Of a stretch of DNA of 64,000 nt, positions 5,729 through 15,396 are shown one piece after another. The notes under the pieces are model-generated. The model was not told the DNA's origin, ran no database searches, and worked only from the letters and a program-made list of their open reading frames with translations. The position numbers and the translations under genes were made by a program. This DNA is from Chrysaora quinquecirrha (lineage: Eukaryota; Cnidaria; Scyphozoa; Semaeostomeae; Pelagiidae). The DNA is taken from assembly GCA_014526335.1 (NCBI GenBank), contig JACTAT010000059.1:2119596-2183595 (forward strand), written 5' to 3'. Position 1 is the stretch's first letter. The number at the start of each line of letters is the position of its first letter.

Positions 5729-8333
5729 TTGACACCTAAATCTAGCAAATTAAACCATGAAAAAAATGTACATGTCCACTTTAATGTTAATGGGCTACAG
5801 AACAAGACAAAACTACCAGAATTTCAACAATTAATTTCAAGGTACGATATCATAGCGTTTGTTGAGTCAAGAACTGATGATTATGATGACTTTAACCTTC
5901 CGAGATTTAAGGCTACTTACATAAAGAATAGAAAACAAAATAAAAGGAACAAATAAGGTGGAATTTTGTTGGGATATGTGATGATGTAAGCAAACTTTTT
6001 GAAGTAGATTTTGAGATGGGCTCTGAAATCTTAATTTGGCTAAAGGAAAGGAAAAAAGTTCTTGAATCTGCCAATCCAAATAAAATTGCAATAGGATTTT
6101 CTTACATTCCCCCAAATAGTTCTTATTATTATGATGAGGATTGTTTTGATGGTTTGGAAGAGATATCAGCAAATTACAAGAGGAAAATTATGAAGTTTTG
6201 TTACTAGGGGATTTAAATGCAAGGACTAAAAAAGAAATTGATTATATTGAATTTGATCAAAGCTTATTTGATCATTTTGGTCTGGACTGTGGAGATATTC
6301 CTAATGAAACTATTTACAATTTAAAATAATTAAAACAAAAACAAATTCCCACTGAACATTTGTAGGAATACCAATCTTTTCATCTTAATTGGACGTGTAG
6401 GGAGGGATAAAGGAGTAGGAAAAAACACTTCTCATGACAAAACTCTATAAGACTATGCAATTGGAAGTGCTGAAATGCTTTGCTCTTGCAAAAACTTTCA
6501 AGTACATGATTTTAATCCATTGTTTTCAGATGTACAAAGTTCGATATCAGTTTCATTTGGTATTTTAGAAAACATTCAATTTATAAAAATAAAGGATCAA
6601 AAAGTGATCCAAATAACTATCAAGGTATAACATTAGTGAGCTGCCTTGGGAAAATATTTACCAGTATTTTAAATAGAAGGCACTCACTTTTTCTTGAAAT
6701 GAACGAACTTCTTAATGAAAATTAAGCAGGATTTCGTGAAAGCTAGTCAACAATTGATCATATTTTTAATCTAAATCTTATAGCTAATTGGTTCGTTTCT
6801 GATGGAAAGAAACTTTACTGTGCCTTCATATATTATGAGAAAGCATTTGACACTGTTTGGAGAAAAGGACTGTGGTTGAAAATGGTTAATCATGGAATTT
6901 CTGGTAAATGCTTAAACATAATAAAAAATATGTATGATCAGACCAAATCAGCATTGAAATTAAATGGGAAATTAAGTGATGTTTTCCATTGCAACATTGG
7001 AGTTCGACAAGTTATCACCATTATTGTTTGCAATGTTTTTAAACAACATGGATAGTTGCTTTGCAGAAGACGAGAATGAGGGCATTGAATCGATGGGCAA
7101 AAATTTTGTTTATTTTCACTTTTGTATGCAGATGACACGGTAGTTTTTGCAGGTTCAGTGGATAAGCTAAAAAAGTCTCTTGATGCCCTGTACAATTATA
7201 GTTCAATGTTGAAATTAAAGGTTAGTGTAGATAAAACAAAAATTATGATTTTTTCTAAGAGTGGTAGATCAAGTAAGAATTTAAAATTTTCGTATAATAA
7301 TATTCCTTTAGATATTGTTAATGAATTTAAGTATCTTGGTGTTATTTTTAAGAGTAATGGTAGGTTTCTAAGTGCAATTAAACACATAAAATCACAAGCT
7401 AATAAGGCAATGAGATGTATAATTTCTAGAGCAAGATCGATTAATATGCCAATAGACCTCCAAATGAAATTATTTGATTCACTAGTAATACCAATTTTGA
7501 CCTATGGTGCAGAAGTATGGGGATTAGAGAAAACAGACCTGATTGATGAATTAGAACTTCAGTTCTATAAATTAATACTTAACGTCAAAAAATCTACCCC
7601 AAACTACATGAAATATGGCAAATTAGGTCGTACTTCAGTCTCTATTACAATAAAATTAAGAAGGCTTAGCTTGTAAACAAAAATACTAACGGGAAAACAA
7701 ACAAAATTTTTGTTTGTTTTGTATAATATTGTAAGCAGAAATATGAACATAAATTGGATTAGAAGCATTAAAAGTATACTGGATAACTCGGGTTTTTCCT
7801 GTATATGGAATACACATGCGTTTCAAAATGCTAACAAGCTGTTAGAAATCGTAAAAGGCAGGTTCAAGGATCGGTATTTGCAACATTGGAATTTCGATAT
7901 GGAAACATCAAGTAAAGGTAGAATGTATAGGCGCATGAAAAAGAGTTTTGACTTTGAAGAGTATCTTAAAATGTTACTTTCCAACCAATCACAATTTCTA
8001 TGCTGGTTTAGAACTGCTAATCATAAATTATCTGTTGAAGTAGGAAGATGGAACAAAATAGATTATAATCTTCGAAAATGTGACATGTGTTCTTCCAAAG
8101 AAGTTGGAGATGAATATCATACTTTACTAAGATGCCCAGCTTTTGATAATATCAGGAAGAACTTTATACCCAATTACTTTTTTCGTTACCCAACTGATGA
8201 AAAATTCGATTCCTTGATGCAAATAAGTAAAGAAAAGAAATTTATTGCAAATATAGCAAAATTTATTAGAGAAATATTTCGCTATCGCCATAAACTGTCT
8301 CGGTCTCCTGTAAACCTAATCCGACTTCCAATA
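5729..8333 (+). pseudogene. APE-type LINE ORF2 (endonuclease + reverse transcriptase + zinc tail), decayed, 5' part
   Basis: Frames chain into one non-LTR retrotransposon protein. At 5765-5890 an endonuclease start reads HFNVNGLQNKTKL and then FVESRTD. At 6205-6225 a GDLNAR motif appears. At about 6605-6870 an RT region has NYQGITLVSCLGKIF, AGF and a YEKAFDTVW-like segment. At 7122 MYADDTVVFAG is the RT catalytic YADD box. At 7330 FKYLGVIF and at 7500 ILTYGAEVWG are typical of the RT thumb. The 7710-8333 part ends in a CxxC...H...C motif (CDMCSSKEVGDEYHTLLRC). Several stops and shifts are present (for example near 5955, 6205, 6330 and 6725), so the copy is dead. Layout fits the CR1/L2/Jockey group. 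The reading frame is cut at 8333 by the 7-kb element, and the LINE 3' end resumes at 15397. Confidence 0.85.
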
Positions 8334-8341
8334 ATTAATTG
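8334..8341. repeat. Left 8-bp target-site duplication
   Basis: ATTAATTG sits directly before CAGGGCC. The copy at 15389-15396 reads TTTAATTG, so seven of eight bases agree. An 8-bp duplication is typical of hAT and a few other DNA transposon superfamilies. Confidence 0.7.
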
Positions 8342-8789
8342 CAGGGCCATAGCTACGGGGGGGTGTGGGGTTGTGACACCCCCCAGGCAAGTCATCCGTC
8401 ACCAAATTTAAGAAGAAGGGAATTTTTCGGCAGTAGTAACTAAGAAACAAAATAAAAGTGTCGGGAAAGCTTCAGCACATAGCTTGCCGACGAATACTAG
8501 CATCAACTTTCCACAGCTGTCGACTTGTTGGGTATCAATAACAGTTAGGGGGTTGCTAACTGCGAGCTATTGCTGAAAGAAAGTGCATCCTTACCAGCTA
8601 ATCGTATCTGTATATGCCAGTTTTCCAGCCATAACAGATACAGGCGCGCAGCAGCAAACAGGATGGAGATACAATGCACGGGGTCGCCAAGACTGCCTCT
8701 AAAATTATAGGTTTAGTCCTATTTCTAACTGTAAAGCGCTCTAGAGTGCATTATCAAAGTAGTCTCAAATTATACAGTGTATACAAGAA

Positions 8790-9475
8790 TCTAACTGGCA
8801 AATGATTACAATGCTGCATGTATGTCCTCCATTTCTATTAGTATAGCTGCTAATGTCCAAAAAACAGCCAAATTGTTCATTTTAGCGATAAAAGCATGAA
8901 ACTTGGCAGGAATAATAGGAAACATGTACTTTATCATTTCTGATATGGATCCAAGCAGTACTAGGTCTTAGAATGGAGAACTATGCATGCTCAGGAACTG
9001 GTCACATGAAACCGAGGCTATGTCTTAATTGTCTGATATCCCAAGCAAGAGCACAGATATATAGACAAAACCAATAAATATGGTCATATTGGTTTATATT
9101 TATGAAATGGTGAGCTGTACATGCACTAATAGTCCTATCGCGAAAACGAGGCTGTGGTGAAATTGTCATACTATAAAAGCAACAATATTCTTTGGAAATG
9201 AAACCAAAATAAAAATCAACTGTACTTTATTGTTTTCATATTATGTTTCACTCATAAAATTCAGTTTCCGAGTTTCCTCCACGGTTGCACAATCCAGTGC
9301 AAGCAAGATTAGCTTTGAGGAGGCATTTTGCAGCATCCCGGACAACCAGCTTTACAGTCAAATCTTATACCTAAAAAGAGTGCATGGAATCAAGTAAAAG
9401 AGCAAACTAATACATTTCGGCATCATTTGAGGCTTAATGCGATTTTAGGTCAAGAAGGGCATCCCAAAATCGGCT
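8790..9475. repeat. Left inverted arm of the 7-kb element
   Basis: Read on the minus strand, this segment aligns with 14610-15270. By eye about 80% of bases agree over the best 300 bp; both arms share GTTCATTTTA, GATATGGATCCAAGC, ACCGAGGCT, TGTCTTAATTGTCT and TATCGCGAAAACGAGGCTGTG. From 9273 to 9359 the arm is an inverted copy of the Cys-rich C-terminal coding tail of the element's own gene. The outermost 450 bp of each end agree much less well. Confidence 0.8.
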
Positions 9476-9862
9476 CAGTGTTCCAAAACAGAAGCGAGGC
9501 TATGACAAAATGTCTCAAAGTTGCACGTGTTTTCGGTTGAAGCAATGGGTGTTGAAGCCTGCAGGTATGACTTATTTTCAGTTTAAATAGATTTCTATGT
9601 GGAATCATAAAAACAAAGTGCCTTTCGAATAATGAAAGTAATTTTCATAACAAATATGCAATAAAAAGAAAGCATAATATATAAAATAGCAATGAACGAT
9701 TAGGTAACAATTTAGAGTTATTTTATAAATTTTTTATTGCGTCGTTCTTAACTAATTTATAAGAATAAAAATATTAGCAATCTATAACATCAAAATTTAA
9801 GATATATAACTTATTTGTAATATGAAATAGAAATATTAATTATTTGTAAAAATAAATATAAT
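9476..9862. other. AT-rich spacer inside the 7-kb element
   Basis: I see no gene here. The sequence is very AT-rich between 9580 and 9860, and its short ORF remnants are shadows of the inverted arm. Confidence 0.5.
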
Positions 9863-9945
9863 CGCCTCTGGGAAGACTCGAACCTCCACTTGCTTTACTC
9901 AATGCAGCGCGAGGCAGACACGCTAACCAAATCACCACAGAACCA
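9863..9945 (-). repeat. tRNA-like sequence (tRNA pseudogene or SINE head)
   Basis: On the minus strand an A-box-like GGTTAGCGTGTCTG and a B-box-like GGTTCGAGTC stand at tRNA spacing. The 5' GGTTCTG can pair with the 3' CAGAGGC at about six of seven positions. The interval between the anticodon region and the T arm is too long and mispaired for a convincing functional tRNA. It lies upstream of the nuclease gene within the mobile element. Confidence 0.45.
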
Positions 9946-10179
9946 TAGTATTGTATTTATTTGTTATTGGTTCATCATTCTAGTCCCAAATTTCGCTTGG
10001 CTCTTAGATTACTAAAAATGGGTTCTTTTATAGCTCGAGGCTGTAGCTCGAGGAGCAGGCTGAGTGGAGCGGGCAGGCCAACACATTTTGATTTAGACTA
10101 TTCCAAGATTTCAGTTGTGTAAAACAAGATTCGATGTTTGGTAATTATTTTTCAATTCTAAATATTATCATTTGACCCC

Positions 10180-13100
10180 ATGGATTGGAAATTGTGCATC
10201 ATTTGCCAAGCCTATAAAGCTGGAGAAACTCTGCAGTGTCCTGCAATTTCGAAAAGGAAGGATGTTGGTGCAAGCTATTCATCGTTTGCTAGCAACCTTG
10301 AAGAATTTAGAATCATCGGATCAGTTCCTGGAAATCTGAATTTAGAGCATCTAGATGATGGACAGGGTGTAGAGAAAACTCTTGTGGAAAGGCAGGCCAC
10401 ATGGTATAAAACATGCAGAAATGCTTTTAGCAGTGCAAAGCTGGAACGTGCAAAAAAAAGAAAGCATGAAAGTGACCAGGATGGTGAAAGCAACATCTTT
10501 GTCGCAACTGAATACACGACTAGCCCAATCAAAGCCAGACGCTCCAGCATTCCTATCAATCCATCCACCAACCACTGTATCTTTTGTGATTCAAGTGACA
10601 GTCCTGAGCATCTTCATGCTGCTTCTACTCTCGAGATCGACAAGAAAGTAAGGGAATGTGCGTCTCTTGTTCATGACAACAACCTCAGCATCTGGAGACA
10701 TGATAGCCATAGAGGTGAAGTACCACACCAAATGTTTAGTTGGTTTGTACAACAAGGCAAGAAAAGTGAAATGCAGTGATGCAAATGCAGACTCAGTTAC
10801 TGTTTCTTCTATAGACACAGAGGAACTGGCTTTCACAGAACTTCTAGCTTTGATCGATGAAAGTATTCAGATTGAAAATTTCACTGTGTTGAAATTGTCA
10901 GATCTTGCAAAATTCTATTCTTCAAGACTGAGTGAAATGCACAGAGAGGCACCGAAAGTTAATACAACAAGATTGAAAGCACGAATACTGGCATCATTCC
11001 CAGACCTTACTGCACACACTCAAGGATGGGAGGTTCTTTTTGTTCTTGGTAATGAAATAGGTGGTGTTTTACTAGACGCCAAGAATAGAGATTCTGAGGC
11101 ATTCTACTTGGCCAAAGCTGCAATGATCGTGAGAAGGGAAATTCTTCAAATAGAAAACTGCTTTAATAGAACATTCTTAGATGATTGCCAGGCAAATTCA
11201 GTTCCCGCCTCACTTGTAACTTTATTGAACATGATAATGAGAGGCCCTACAACCAAACGGGATACAACAGAGAGCCAAGCATGCCTTACTGTCGCTCAGT
11301 TGATAGTTTGCAATAGCATATCTCGATTTAGAAACGTATCCAGTGATCAGAGAAGTAGCCACACACATCATGTGAGAAACAGAGAGTGCCCTTTACCTAT
11401 ATACACGGCAGTGAAGATATATGGCACAACAAGAGAAATATCACTTATTGACACCTTCTACAAGCTTGGGCTGTGTGTATGATACGACAGGCTACTGTCG
11501 ATCTCGACTGATATAACTAACACTGTCATTGATAGGTATGAAGAGGATGGAATAGTATGCCCTTCCAAATTACGCAATGGGGTGTTTACAATTGCAGTGG
11601 TCGATAACATTGATCACAACCCAAGCGCAACCAGTTCCCAGGGTTCTTTTCATGGTACAGCCATCTCCTTGGTCTAGCACGTAACAACAGAAAATTCAGG
11701 GGTAGAGAGACCTACTGATGTCTTTGACCCGAATAGATGCTCGACTTCCAAAAAAATCACCCGATTGCCAACCTATTACACTGATGTTCCACCTTTCACT
11801 CTTCCCTCTACAAATATTGTTGTCTCTGATAGTAGCAATCAGCTGGGGTTTGAGGCAGATCAAAATGCATCCTCTCAAGTGAATTACGAAGATGACTGGC
11901 TTGAAAGTACCAGACAGGCCCTGACAAAAGAAGAGCTAGGGAACGAAGAAGCAGTGTCATGGGCTGCATACCATGCTTCAAGATCATCAATATCATTTCA
12001 CCAGCCAGCTATTATATCATTGCTTCCAATATTCACAGAGAATGCACACTCGCTTGCTATGATTGCGCATTCAATCAATGTCACCAGCAAGGCCATATTG
12101 CACTTGAATCCATCGCAAATACCTGTTATCGCAGCTGATCAACCTTTGTTTGCCCTGGCAAAACAAATTCAATGGATGGCTAGCGGTACATATGACGAGG
12201 ATCATCTTCTTGTCATGATGGGTGGATTGCACATCGAAATGGCTGCTTTTAAGGCTCTCGGGAAGTGATTGAATGGCAGTGGATGTGTAGAAGCACTTAT
12301 CATTGCATCAGTGGCATCATCAGGAGTAGCAGATTCATTTATTTCAGCAAGTCGTATAGCAAGAACAAGAAGAGCCCATCAAATAACAGCAGCAGCTCTT
12401 CATACTCTAATGAAGAAAGCATATGTTGAATATAGTAAATCAGATGAAAACAATGGCGTTGTGGAACCGTTTAGTGACTGGAAAGACGAGAGGATGAAGA
12501 AGTGTCCCCAATTTCTCTACTGGCTACTGGACCACCCTACTGGAGTTTGAGTTTCTTTGCCTCAAGCTTGTAAAAGCATTCAGAGAGTCAAACTTTTCTT
12601 TATATATGCAAGCTATTCGTGATTTACTTCCTTGGATGTTTGCTCTTGACTGCTATAACTATTGGAGATGGCTTCCTGTGCATTATCGAGACATGAGTGA
12701 GTTGCATTCAAAGCATCCAGATTTGTTTACGGAGTTTCAAAATGGTTCTTTTGTAGCTCACAAGACAAACAGACTATTTTCAGCTATTGCGTTAGATCAA
12801 GCCCACGAGCAGGTCAATGCCATCATAAAAGGAGAAGGAGGTGCTATAGGGTTGACAGAATATCCTGCAGCCCTCAGGAGATGGATGGTAGGTGGTCCAG
12901 AGCTGGCAAGGATGGTAAAAGAATGTGAAAATGTCACATTGGAACAAGAGAGCCAAAAGCACCACGAAAAAAACCGGCCATTCAAGCAGCCTTTGCAAAA
13001 GATGTGTCGAAATTAGTTGCTTCGATTGATGAAATTGGTAATCCATTCACGGAAGATGGGGAAAACCTTACAACTCTCAATAGGAAAGACATCATGAGTG

Positions 13101-14804
13101 AAGATGTTGTGTTCACAGTGAGAAACGGAAAAAATCTCGGAGAGATGCAATGCAAACAATTTTGTAAGGAGCGACTCCAGGAAAAAACAAAGCCTTTAAC
13201 AGATGCCATTACAAAAATAATCTTTCTACATTCAATATCAAAGAAAAAAAGGTTCCTTCAAAAAACAAAACAAAAGTAACAGTGTTAAAGGAAGATTGTG
13301 CCCTCTTTTCAAGACTTTACCTTACATGTCAAAATCGTGATGGAAACCTTGAAGATTTCTTCAGGTTTGAAAACCAACCGTGGCCTCTTCGCTATCTAAA
13401 ATGGGACAACTGCGAGGAGGCTCGAAAGCAGATCTTGTAGGCTGCTTGACGGGTTCTCTTTGTGAAACAGAAGGCCATCCAGTTGTAGATGCTGCTATAT
13501 TAGACGGAGCAGTGATAGTGCAGATGTTGCAACCCAAAGCTGTAACCACATTTGAAGAGTACTTTGACCATATATTTGCTCCTTGCATACTGAGACAGTT
13601 GCAAGATGTGAAGAGGCTCGATATTGTTTGGGATATTTATAGAGACGACTCTTTGAAGAAAACAACCAGAGAAAAGCGAGGGTCAGGTCAGAGGAGAAAA
13701 GTCACGCCGTCTACCCTTATTCCGTCTGACTGGAAAGGTTTCTTGAGAGTCAATGACAACAAAGATGAACTCTTCAAACTCTTAGCAACCAAAGTGAGTA
13801 CTATTTGTTACGGTCTTTCTTTCGTAAATTTTCATTATGAATTACAGAATGAATATTCCTGGAAAACGTATAAAGTCACTTTTTTAATTTTTGTTTTGTA
13901 AGCGGTTTCTCTAAAGCTGTCGGCAGGGAAAACTATTTTTGCAACATATGGAGAAAATGTTTTGTCATCCGAAGAAATGCCAGATATGAGTGCTCTTTCA
14001 CCGTGTACTCATGAAGAAGCGGACACGCGCATGATTATTCACGCATTCGATGCCAGTCTGCATGGTCATCGAAGAATAGAGATTCGAAGTAACGACACTG
14101 ATGTTGTTGTACTAGCTGTTGCATTTGCTCCAGTTATGTCAATGGATGAGTTATGGATCTCATACGGCCCTTCTAAGCAAGTTCGGAATCTTCCAGCTCA
14201 TTCGATTGCCACATCCATTGGTTTGAAAATAGCCCGGGTACTACCACTGTTTCATGCATTAACTGGGTGCAACACGGTTTCATTTTATTGCGACAGAGGA
14301 AAGAAGACAGCATGTCATGTTTGGAAGGTATTTCCCGAGCTAACTATCGCCCTTGAAAAATTGATGATGCTGCCAGATAATGTTGATGATGCATGCTTGG
14401 GTGTCATTGAGAGGTTTACAATTCTTTTATACCATAGAACATGCAGTTTAAACAAAGTTAACGAAGTGAGACAAATCCTTTTTTCAAGCAAAGCAAGATC
14501 ACTTGAAAACATTCCTCCAACGCAGACATCATTATTGCAACAAATCAAGAGGGCTATCTTTCAAGGAGCTTATGCATGGGGTCAGACCCTGTTAAAGCAG
14601 CCTACCTTGCCAAGTCCTTCCCTGTGGGGATGGAAACTCGAAAATAGCTACTGGGTGCCTTATTGGACTTCGTTACCGTAAGCCAAGGACTCTTGCTATG
14701 AACTGATCCGATGTGGCTGTAAAGCTGGTTGTCGGGGACGCTGCAAATGCCTCAAAGCTAATCTTGCTTGCACTGGATTGTGCAAATGTGGAGGAAACTG
14801 CTAA
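10180..14804 (+). pseudogene. HEEADTR-family protein: Cys/His N-terminus, possible RNase-H-like core, FEN/XPG-like nuclease, Cys-rich tail
   Basis: The product would be about 1,500 residues. N-terminal Cys/His region: CIICQAYKAGETLQCPA (10195), HCIFCDSSDSPEHLH (10573), VKYHTKCLVGLYN (10717). Middle: VDNIDHNPS and SFHGT (about 11600-11660), ADQPLFALAKQIQW (12132), GGLHIEM, YWRWLPVHYRDM (12660), DQAHEQVNA (12796), EYPAALRRWM. C-terminal nuclease part: ILDGAVIV, then VWDIYRDDSLK and REKRG (13625-13685), THEEADTRMIIHA (14007), SNDTDVVVLA (14088), ALTGCNTVSF (14257). These mirror XPG N and I regions and the LxGxDY loop of FEN-type nucleases. The tail (14716-14801) has ten Cys in 30 residues. Four in-frame stops (11480, 11675, 12266, 14679) and about five frameshifts make it a pseudogene. 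A 123-bp intron at 13794-13916 keeps phase. The nuclease assignment is motif-based. Confidence 0.8.
13794..13916 (+). other. In-phase GT-AG intron in the nuclease gene
   Basis: The donor reads AAA|GTGAGTA and the acceptor CTAAAG|CTG. The length is 123 bp (41 codons). Removal joins LATK to LSAGKTIFATYG in frame 3 and removes a TAA at 13899. This is the one clear intron in an otherwise intronless gene. Confidence 0.65.
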
Positions 14805-15270
14805 TCTTGGTGGAACATATTATAAAAACAATATAAAGTTTAGTTCATTTTCATTTTTTTTTATTTCCAAAGAATATTTTTGCTATTATATTTTGACTTT
14901 TCACAGCCTCGTTTTCGCGATAGAACTATTAGCGCATGCGCAGATCACCATTTGATCTTGTATAAGATTGAACATCAAAATATAACCGTATTTATTTGTT
15001 TTGACTATATATCTATGCTCTCGCGTCAGATATGAGACAATTAAGACAGAGCCTCGGTTTCATTTGACCAGCTTCTGATCATGCGTAGTTATCCACTCTA
15101 AGACTAAGTACCGCTTGGATCCATATCATAAATCATTTTGTACATGTTAGTTAGTATTCCTGCAAAGTTTCATGCTTTTATCAGTAAAATGAACAATTCA
15201 GGACGTTAGCAACTATACAATATATGATGTTCTATGATTCAAGCATGATATTTCTGACCTGGCAGTTGTG
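14610..15270. repeat. Right inverted arm of the 7-kb element
   Basis: This is the partner of 8790-9475. It starts inside the last coding exon, runs through the stop at 14802-14804 and covers the 3' untranslated part. The segment 14904-15210 holds the best-conserved part of the arm. Confidence 0.8.
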
Positions 15271-15388
15271 TGAAAGCATGGGAAACAAAAAAAATTCGCC
15301 AAGGAAAGAGCAACAGCCAAGCCACGCCCATTTTGTCGGCAAAATACCGAGCTATACCCCCAGTCATTGAGTCCTTGCGACGGCCCTG

Positions 15389-15396
15389 TTTAATTG
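15389..15396. repeat. Right 8-bp target-site duplication
   Basis: TTTAATTG follows GGCCCTG directly and pairs with ATTAATTG at 8334-8341. Confidence 0.7.

Follow-up and report, generated by a model that had tools for sequence, protein, structure and literature searches.

A transposon with a probable transposase-FEN/XPG nuclease fusion gene nested in a hAT-like element of Chrysaora quinquecirrha

The subject of this study is a 7-kb insertion at 8342-15388 of a 64,000-nucleotide stretch of the Chrysaora quinquecirrha genome (GenBank assembly GCA_014526335.1, contig JACTAT010000059.1, positions 2,119,596 to 2,183,595; hereafter the window), which an initial annotation had described as one transposon with CAGGGCC ends and a gene for a FEN/XPG-like nuclease fused to a possible transposase. 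Our analysis indicated, with a probability of roughly 0.83, that the insertion is a nested pair, in which a hAT-like element lies in a long interspersed nuclear element (LINE) and an AcademX-type transposon encoding a transposase-FEN/XPG fusion protein lies in the hAT-like element.

Boundaries, duplications and empty sites of the two elements

The gene-bearing inner element occupied 8839-15220 of the forward strand (6,382 bp), with the ends TAGTATAGC and CTATACAA. It was flanked by a 3-bp TAT target duplication (8836-8838 and 15221-15223), the junction in the window reading CATTTCTAT, the 6,382 bp and then TATATGATGTTC. Its terminal inverted repeats (TIRs), at 8841-9387 on the forward and 14683-15218 on the reverse strand, were each longer than 500 bp and were identical at 438 of 513 aligned positions. 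The inner junction was sought in 11 copies of the outer element, of which eight were displayed; it was uninterrupted and read exactly CATTTCTATATGATGTTC in three of them (L017, L026 and L027), and it differed from this by one or two bases in the other five. The empty site of the outer element, ATTAATTGAAGTAC, ran uninterrupted in two LINE copies (L074 and L075), which were identical to the joined outer flanks of the window at 277 of 295 and 270 of 291 positions. Both empty sites together gave the order of insertion, with the LINE first, the small outer element second and the gene-bearing element last.

The outer element consisted of a left part (8342-8838) and a right part (15221-15388, starting with the second inner TAT), both on the forward strand. 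CAGGGCC at 8342 and GGCCCTG at 15382-15388 were present as the initial annotation had noted, and so was the 8-bp duplication with one mismatch, which was ATTAATTG at 8334-8341 within the LINE and TTTAATTG at 15389-15396. The resumption of the host repeat beyond the insertion was borne out by the two intact copies, while its assignment as a LINE came from the reading of upstream translated frames, which contained a YADD-type reverse transcriptase motif; a Pfam scan of the flank upstream of the outer element (7710-8340) gave no match. No long inverted repeat was found in the joined outer flanks of the window copy, which lacked most of the stretch present between the two parts in other copies.

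When the genome was searched with 8342-9400, at least 41 rows matched, this and the following counts being lower bounds because 40 of 262 candidates were scored. The full length was matched by the window itself and by a diverged duplicate on contig C25, while query positions 1-476 alone were matched by at least 35 and the query from 496-498 onward by at least four, with the break falling at position 8839. Two of the 35 rows covering only the left part were pieces of one copy. In the 24 of them examined as loci, the right part restarted at window position 15221-15223 in 22 and at 15233 in L024, and it was not found in L028. The gap between the two parts measured 97-117 bp in 15 loci and 760-865 bp in six, with single loci at 52 bp and 150 bp, so every gap was too short for these copies to contain the gene. 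Both ends were recovered in 18 of the 24 loci, with lengths of 734-886 bp in 13 copies and 1468-1574 bp in five. CAGGG-type ends are a hallmark of hAT elements, and 12 of these 18 copies combined them with an 8-bp duplication having at most one mismatch (10 were perfect), the other six lacking the duplication. Since its copies were short and free of the gene, the CAGGGCC unit is an independent short repeat.

Copies of the inner element elsewhere had the same end points. L041 held a 6,421-bp copy identical to the window at 6,087 of 6,332 aligned positions and flanked by GAT, and L039 and L040 held copies with internal deletions, common flanks and the common duplication TCA; reading across both ends of all three revealed no outer-element sequence. 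The duplications of four independent insertions were thus 3 bp long rather than the 8 bp of hAT elements (TAT in the window, TCA in L039/L040, GAT in L041 and TAT in L063), and a fifth, L067, had GTA/GTG with one of three bases mismatched. A protein search of the genome for the gene gave 158 matches, of which 30 loci, some copies being included twice, were examined over about 1.5 kb on each side. Outer sequence was present in this stretch at one of the 30, that of the window. Similarity to the terminal inner repeats was found at 21 loci, three matched only the repeat portion overlapping the end of the gene, and six had no repeat similarity; one of these six, L055, sits in the C25 duplicate, which has the outer left part (L043). 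At 15 more distant loci, chosen for having terminal similarity, 17 of 18 inspected ends started with TAGTAC or TAGTCC, the exception being the right end of L060. The gene therefore travels with TAGT ends.

Several further observations were made on these elements. The final codons of the gene recurred in mirrored form in the left TIR (9271-9364 versus 14710-14799), which means that TIR and coding end overlap. The longer outer variant (1468-1574 bp; L022, L026, L029, L031 and L035) contained extra internal sequence. The C25 copy (L010, L043) was a 96-98% duplicate of the left side of the nest including the LINE flank. It had about 237 additional bases close to window position 9738 and a gap at 11467-11683, and it is either a segmental duplicate or an alternative haplotype. 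The inner copy L042 on contig C91 had been rearranged, its pieces lying in opposite orientations. Within the inner element, 9870-9945 on the reverse strand was tRNA-like and SINE-like, with A-box- and B-box-like motifs recognized by eye, and neither ARAGORN nor Rfam gave a call for it.

The fusion gene and its two putative enzymatic regions

The gene (10180-14804, forward strand) comprised N-terminal Cys motifs, a likely transposase, a FEN/XPG nuclease and a C-terminal Cys-rich tail. It had been described as one long gene, and it is indeed a single gene, but its frame is decayed, with in-frame stops at 11480, 11675, 12266 and 14679 and frameshifts near 10690, 12524 and 13014-13280. Relatives aligned collinearly along 10180-14804. 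The 1018-residue relative P0127 contained the transposase and the N region of the nuclease in one protein, as did P0236, and the Chrysaora locus L062, reported with a 1,295-residue open frame, contained the C-terminal part of the transposase and the whole nuclease in one frame over the stretch examined. Together with the fold comparison below, P0127 and L062 supported the proposed fusion of a nuclease to a likely transposase. Few relatives bear an animal name; these are Apostichopus, Caligus, Patiria, Saccostrea, Patella and Actinostola. P0185, labelled as a bacterial metagenome-assembled genome (Sedimenticola sp.), is probably animal DNA in the bacterial bin.

The transposase region (10694-12971, forward strand) contained putative catalytic residues in VVDNIDHN (11597-11620), AADQPLF (from 12131) and DQAHEQ (from 12795). 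In an alignment of 92 proteins out of the best 120 of 525 hits (7,999 candidates scored), D273 and D276 were each conserved in 92/92 aligned sequences, D452 in 86/88 and E673 in 26/29; these are candidate residues of a DDE triad. The structure model of P0127 (pLDDT 82.4) gave VIA-align values of 11.2 and 10.9 against the P element over 368-369 residues (rmsd about 6). The next rows reached at most 7.0, including Hermes (6.9), ISCth4 (6.6) and RAG1 (6.6), and small winged-helix-type matches to residues 14-93 were interspersed among the lower rows; absence from such lists excludes nothing. We read the region as a probable DDE transposase of the RNase H fold, whose predicted structure includes a large helical insertion and resembles that of the P element.

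The nuclease (13494-14678, forward strand) had its N region up to 13796 and its I region after a probable intron near 13797-13904, placed there because the matches leave a gap. The motifs followed the order claimed in the initial annotation, namely VWDIYRDDSLK (13626-13658), REKRG (13668-13682), HEEADTR (14010-14030), NDTDVVVLA (14091-14117) and LTGCNT (14259-14276), the last reading GCNT in the window and GCDT in most relatives. The structure model of a relative, together with the alignment, yielded a PIN/FEN-XPG fold with clustered acidic residues in the C-terminal third of the protein, as had been anticipated. This predicted fold and the order of the acidic motifs are common to FEN1, Exo1, XPG and GEN1, and since the motif order agrees, the residues would correspond one by one to those of FEN1. 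The domain differs from these enzymes in being part of a mobile element, where it follows the transposase to which it is fused, and the identity among the matches listed was 9-18%.

Sequence profiles contributed little. Pfam scans of window pieces gave no match better than E 0.088, and those of the 88 aligned nuclease sequences none better than E 0.0061 among the best 25 of 33 families; no Pfam model was found for the nuclease. The C-terminal Cys-rich stretch (14712-14804, forward strand) was weakly CXC/tesmin-like, with Pfam TCR in 2 of the 88 sequences (best E 0.0061). In single relatives all Pfam matches were below the cut-off except DUF6589 in the transposase region of P0236 (29.0 bits versus a cut-off of 27); in P0157 it fell just under, so that it reached the cut-off in one of the two listed relatives bearing it. 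In both relatives DUF6589, which Pfam annotates as of unknown function, overlapped the transposase region in its C-terminal half, and the family could represent a remote part of transposases of this kind. Searches of PDB sequences with the nuclease and transposase alignments returned nothing useful.

Family placement and alternative explanations

AcademX, a lineage of the Academ superfamily, was reportedly described by Kojima in 2020. Its nuclease is of the XPG type. Our literature search turned up no paper describing an XPG nuclease in Academ. AcademX elements are linked to a nuclease and to 3-4 bp duplications (PMC10045372). Because its nuclease and 3-bp duplication agree with these described features, the inner element would be AcademX-like, and Academ was judged the right neighbourhood, as the initial annotation had suspected. 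A further likeness, judged from the description of AcademX, is that both are DNA transposons, the transposase of the inner element being a candidate DDE enzyme like the DDE-type transposase of AcademX. AcademH has the superfamily in common with the inner element but is linked to a helicase and to duplications of 9-10 bp (PMC10045372). For bivalves, the mean length of Academ consensus elements is 5,565 bp (PMC10294476), versus 6.4 kb here. KolobokP and KolobokD are DDE transposons that also have an accessory nuclease, but theirs is described as His-Me finger or DEDDh rather than FEN/XPG (PMC9587614). One result weighs against our interpretation, in that Foldseek gave no sensible match at a useful E-value for the transposase model, leaving the P-element likeness to VIA-align.

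It is unlikely, though worth stating, that the inner element represents a lineage with two nucleases in one polypeptide, in which a P-element-like DDE transposase and the FEN/XPG domain process intermediates in cis and set the 3-bp duplication, with a transposase descent distinct from that of described AcademX. We give a slightly smaller chance to a superfamily other than AcademX, in which a P-element-like DDE transposase recruited a FEN/XPG nuclease independently; the P element was the nearest fold among the chains compared, DUF6589, the one Pfam model to exceed its cut-off, has no assigned function and did so in one relative, and the AcademX identity depends on two features. P elements make 8-bp duplications and are not known to have a FEN domain, and in both respects they differ from the inner element. 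Against a separate superfamily, nuclease and duplication length both fit AcademX (PMC10045372), and since the chains compared included no Academ structure, a P-like fold does not count against Academ.

Less probable again is a non-catalytic FEN/XPG domain, retained as a structural remnant that does no more than aid DNA binding. The window has Asn at the last acidic residue, as do 5 of the 88 aligned sequences including its own, but Asp is kept there in 80, D177 in 84 and D179 in 85. The idea of a single 7-kb hAT-like element with 8-bp duplications, of which the short CAGGGCC repeats would be internal-deletion derivatives, can practically be discarded: CAGGGCC ends and an 8-bp duplication do flank the gene in the window, and the C25 duplicate likewise has outer sequence to the left of the inner element, but inside the outer element the gene comes with TIRs, ends and a 3-bp duplication of its own, the gene-free outer copies run uninterrupted over the insertion point, outer sequence is present at just the window's locus among the 30 gene loci over the stretch examined, and it is missing from L039, L040 and L041, read across both ends, whose lack of these ends and duplications is what the initial annotation had named in advance as contradicting it.

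Under the reading of an AcademX-type transposon nested in a hAT-like element, a short hAT-like element would have jumped into the LINE with an 8-bp duplication, and the AcademX-type transposon would later have jumped into it, with the TAT duplication, and then decayed. The N-terminal Cys motifs and winged-helix-like region of the inner protein probably bind DNA. The transposase may bind the long inverted repeats and cut and join with a 3-bp stagger, and the FEN/XPG part may act at excised ends or target gaps, where it would trim 5' flaps or branched intermediates; in elements without such a part, this task would fall to host repair.

Implications of the nesting

The nesting resolves the apparent contradiction of hAT-like ends on an Academ-like gene. 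The relation to Academ looked odd, with hAT-like ends and a longer duplication, because two elements are nested; the nuclease proposed earlier was upheld, and the hAT-ended Academ element was an artefact of nesting. Clean boundaries are now given for a gene family that is found in several animal groups and has hardly any Pfam coverage. This raises the testable question of whether a transposon carrying a flap nuclease itself processes the gaps that arise from its excision or insertion, and the further question of whether having its own nuclease is the reason for a 3-bp duplication, as against 9-10 bp in the helicase lineage.
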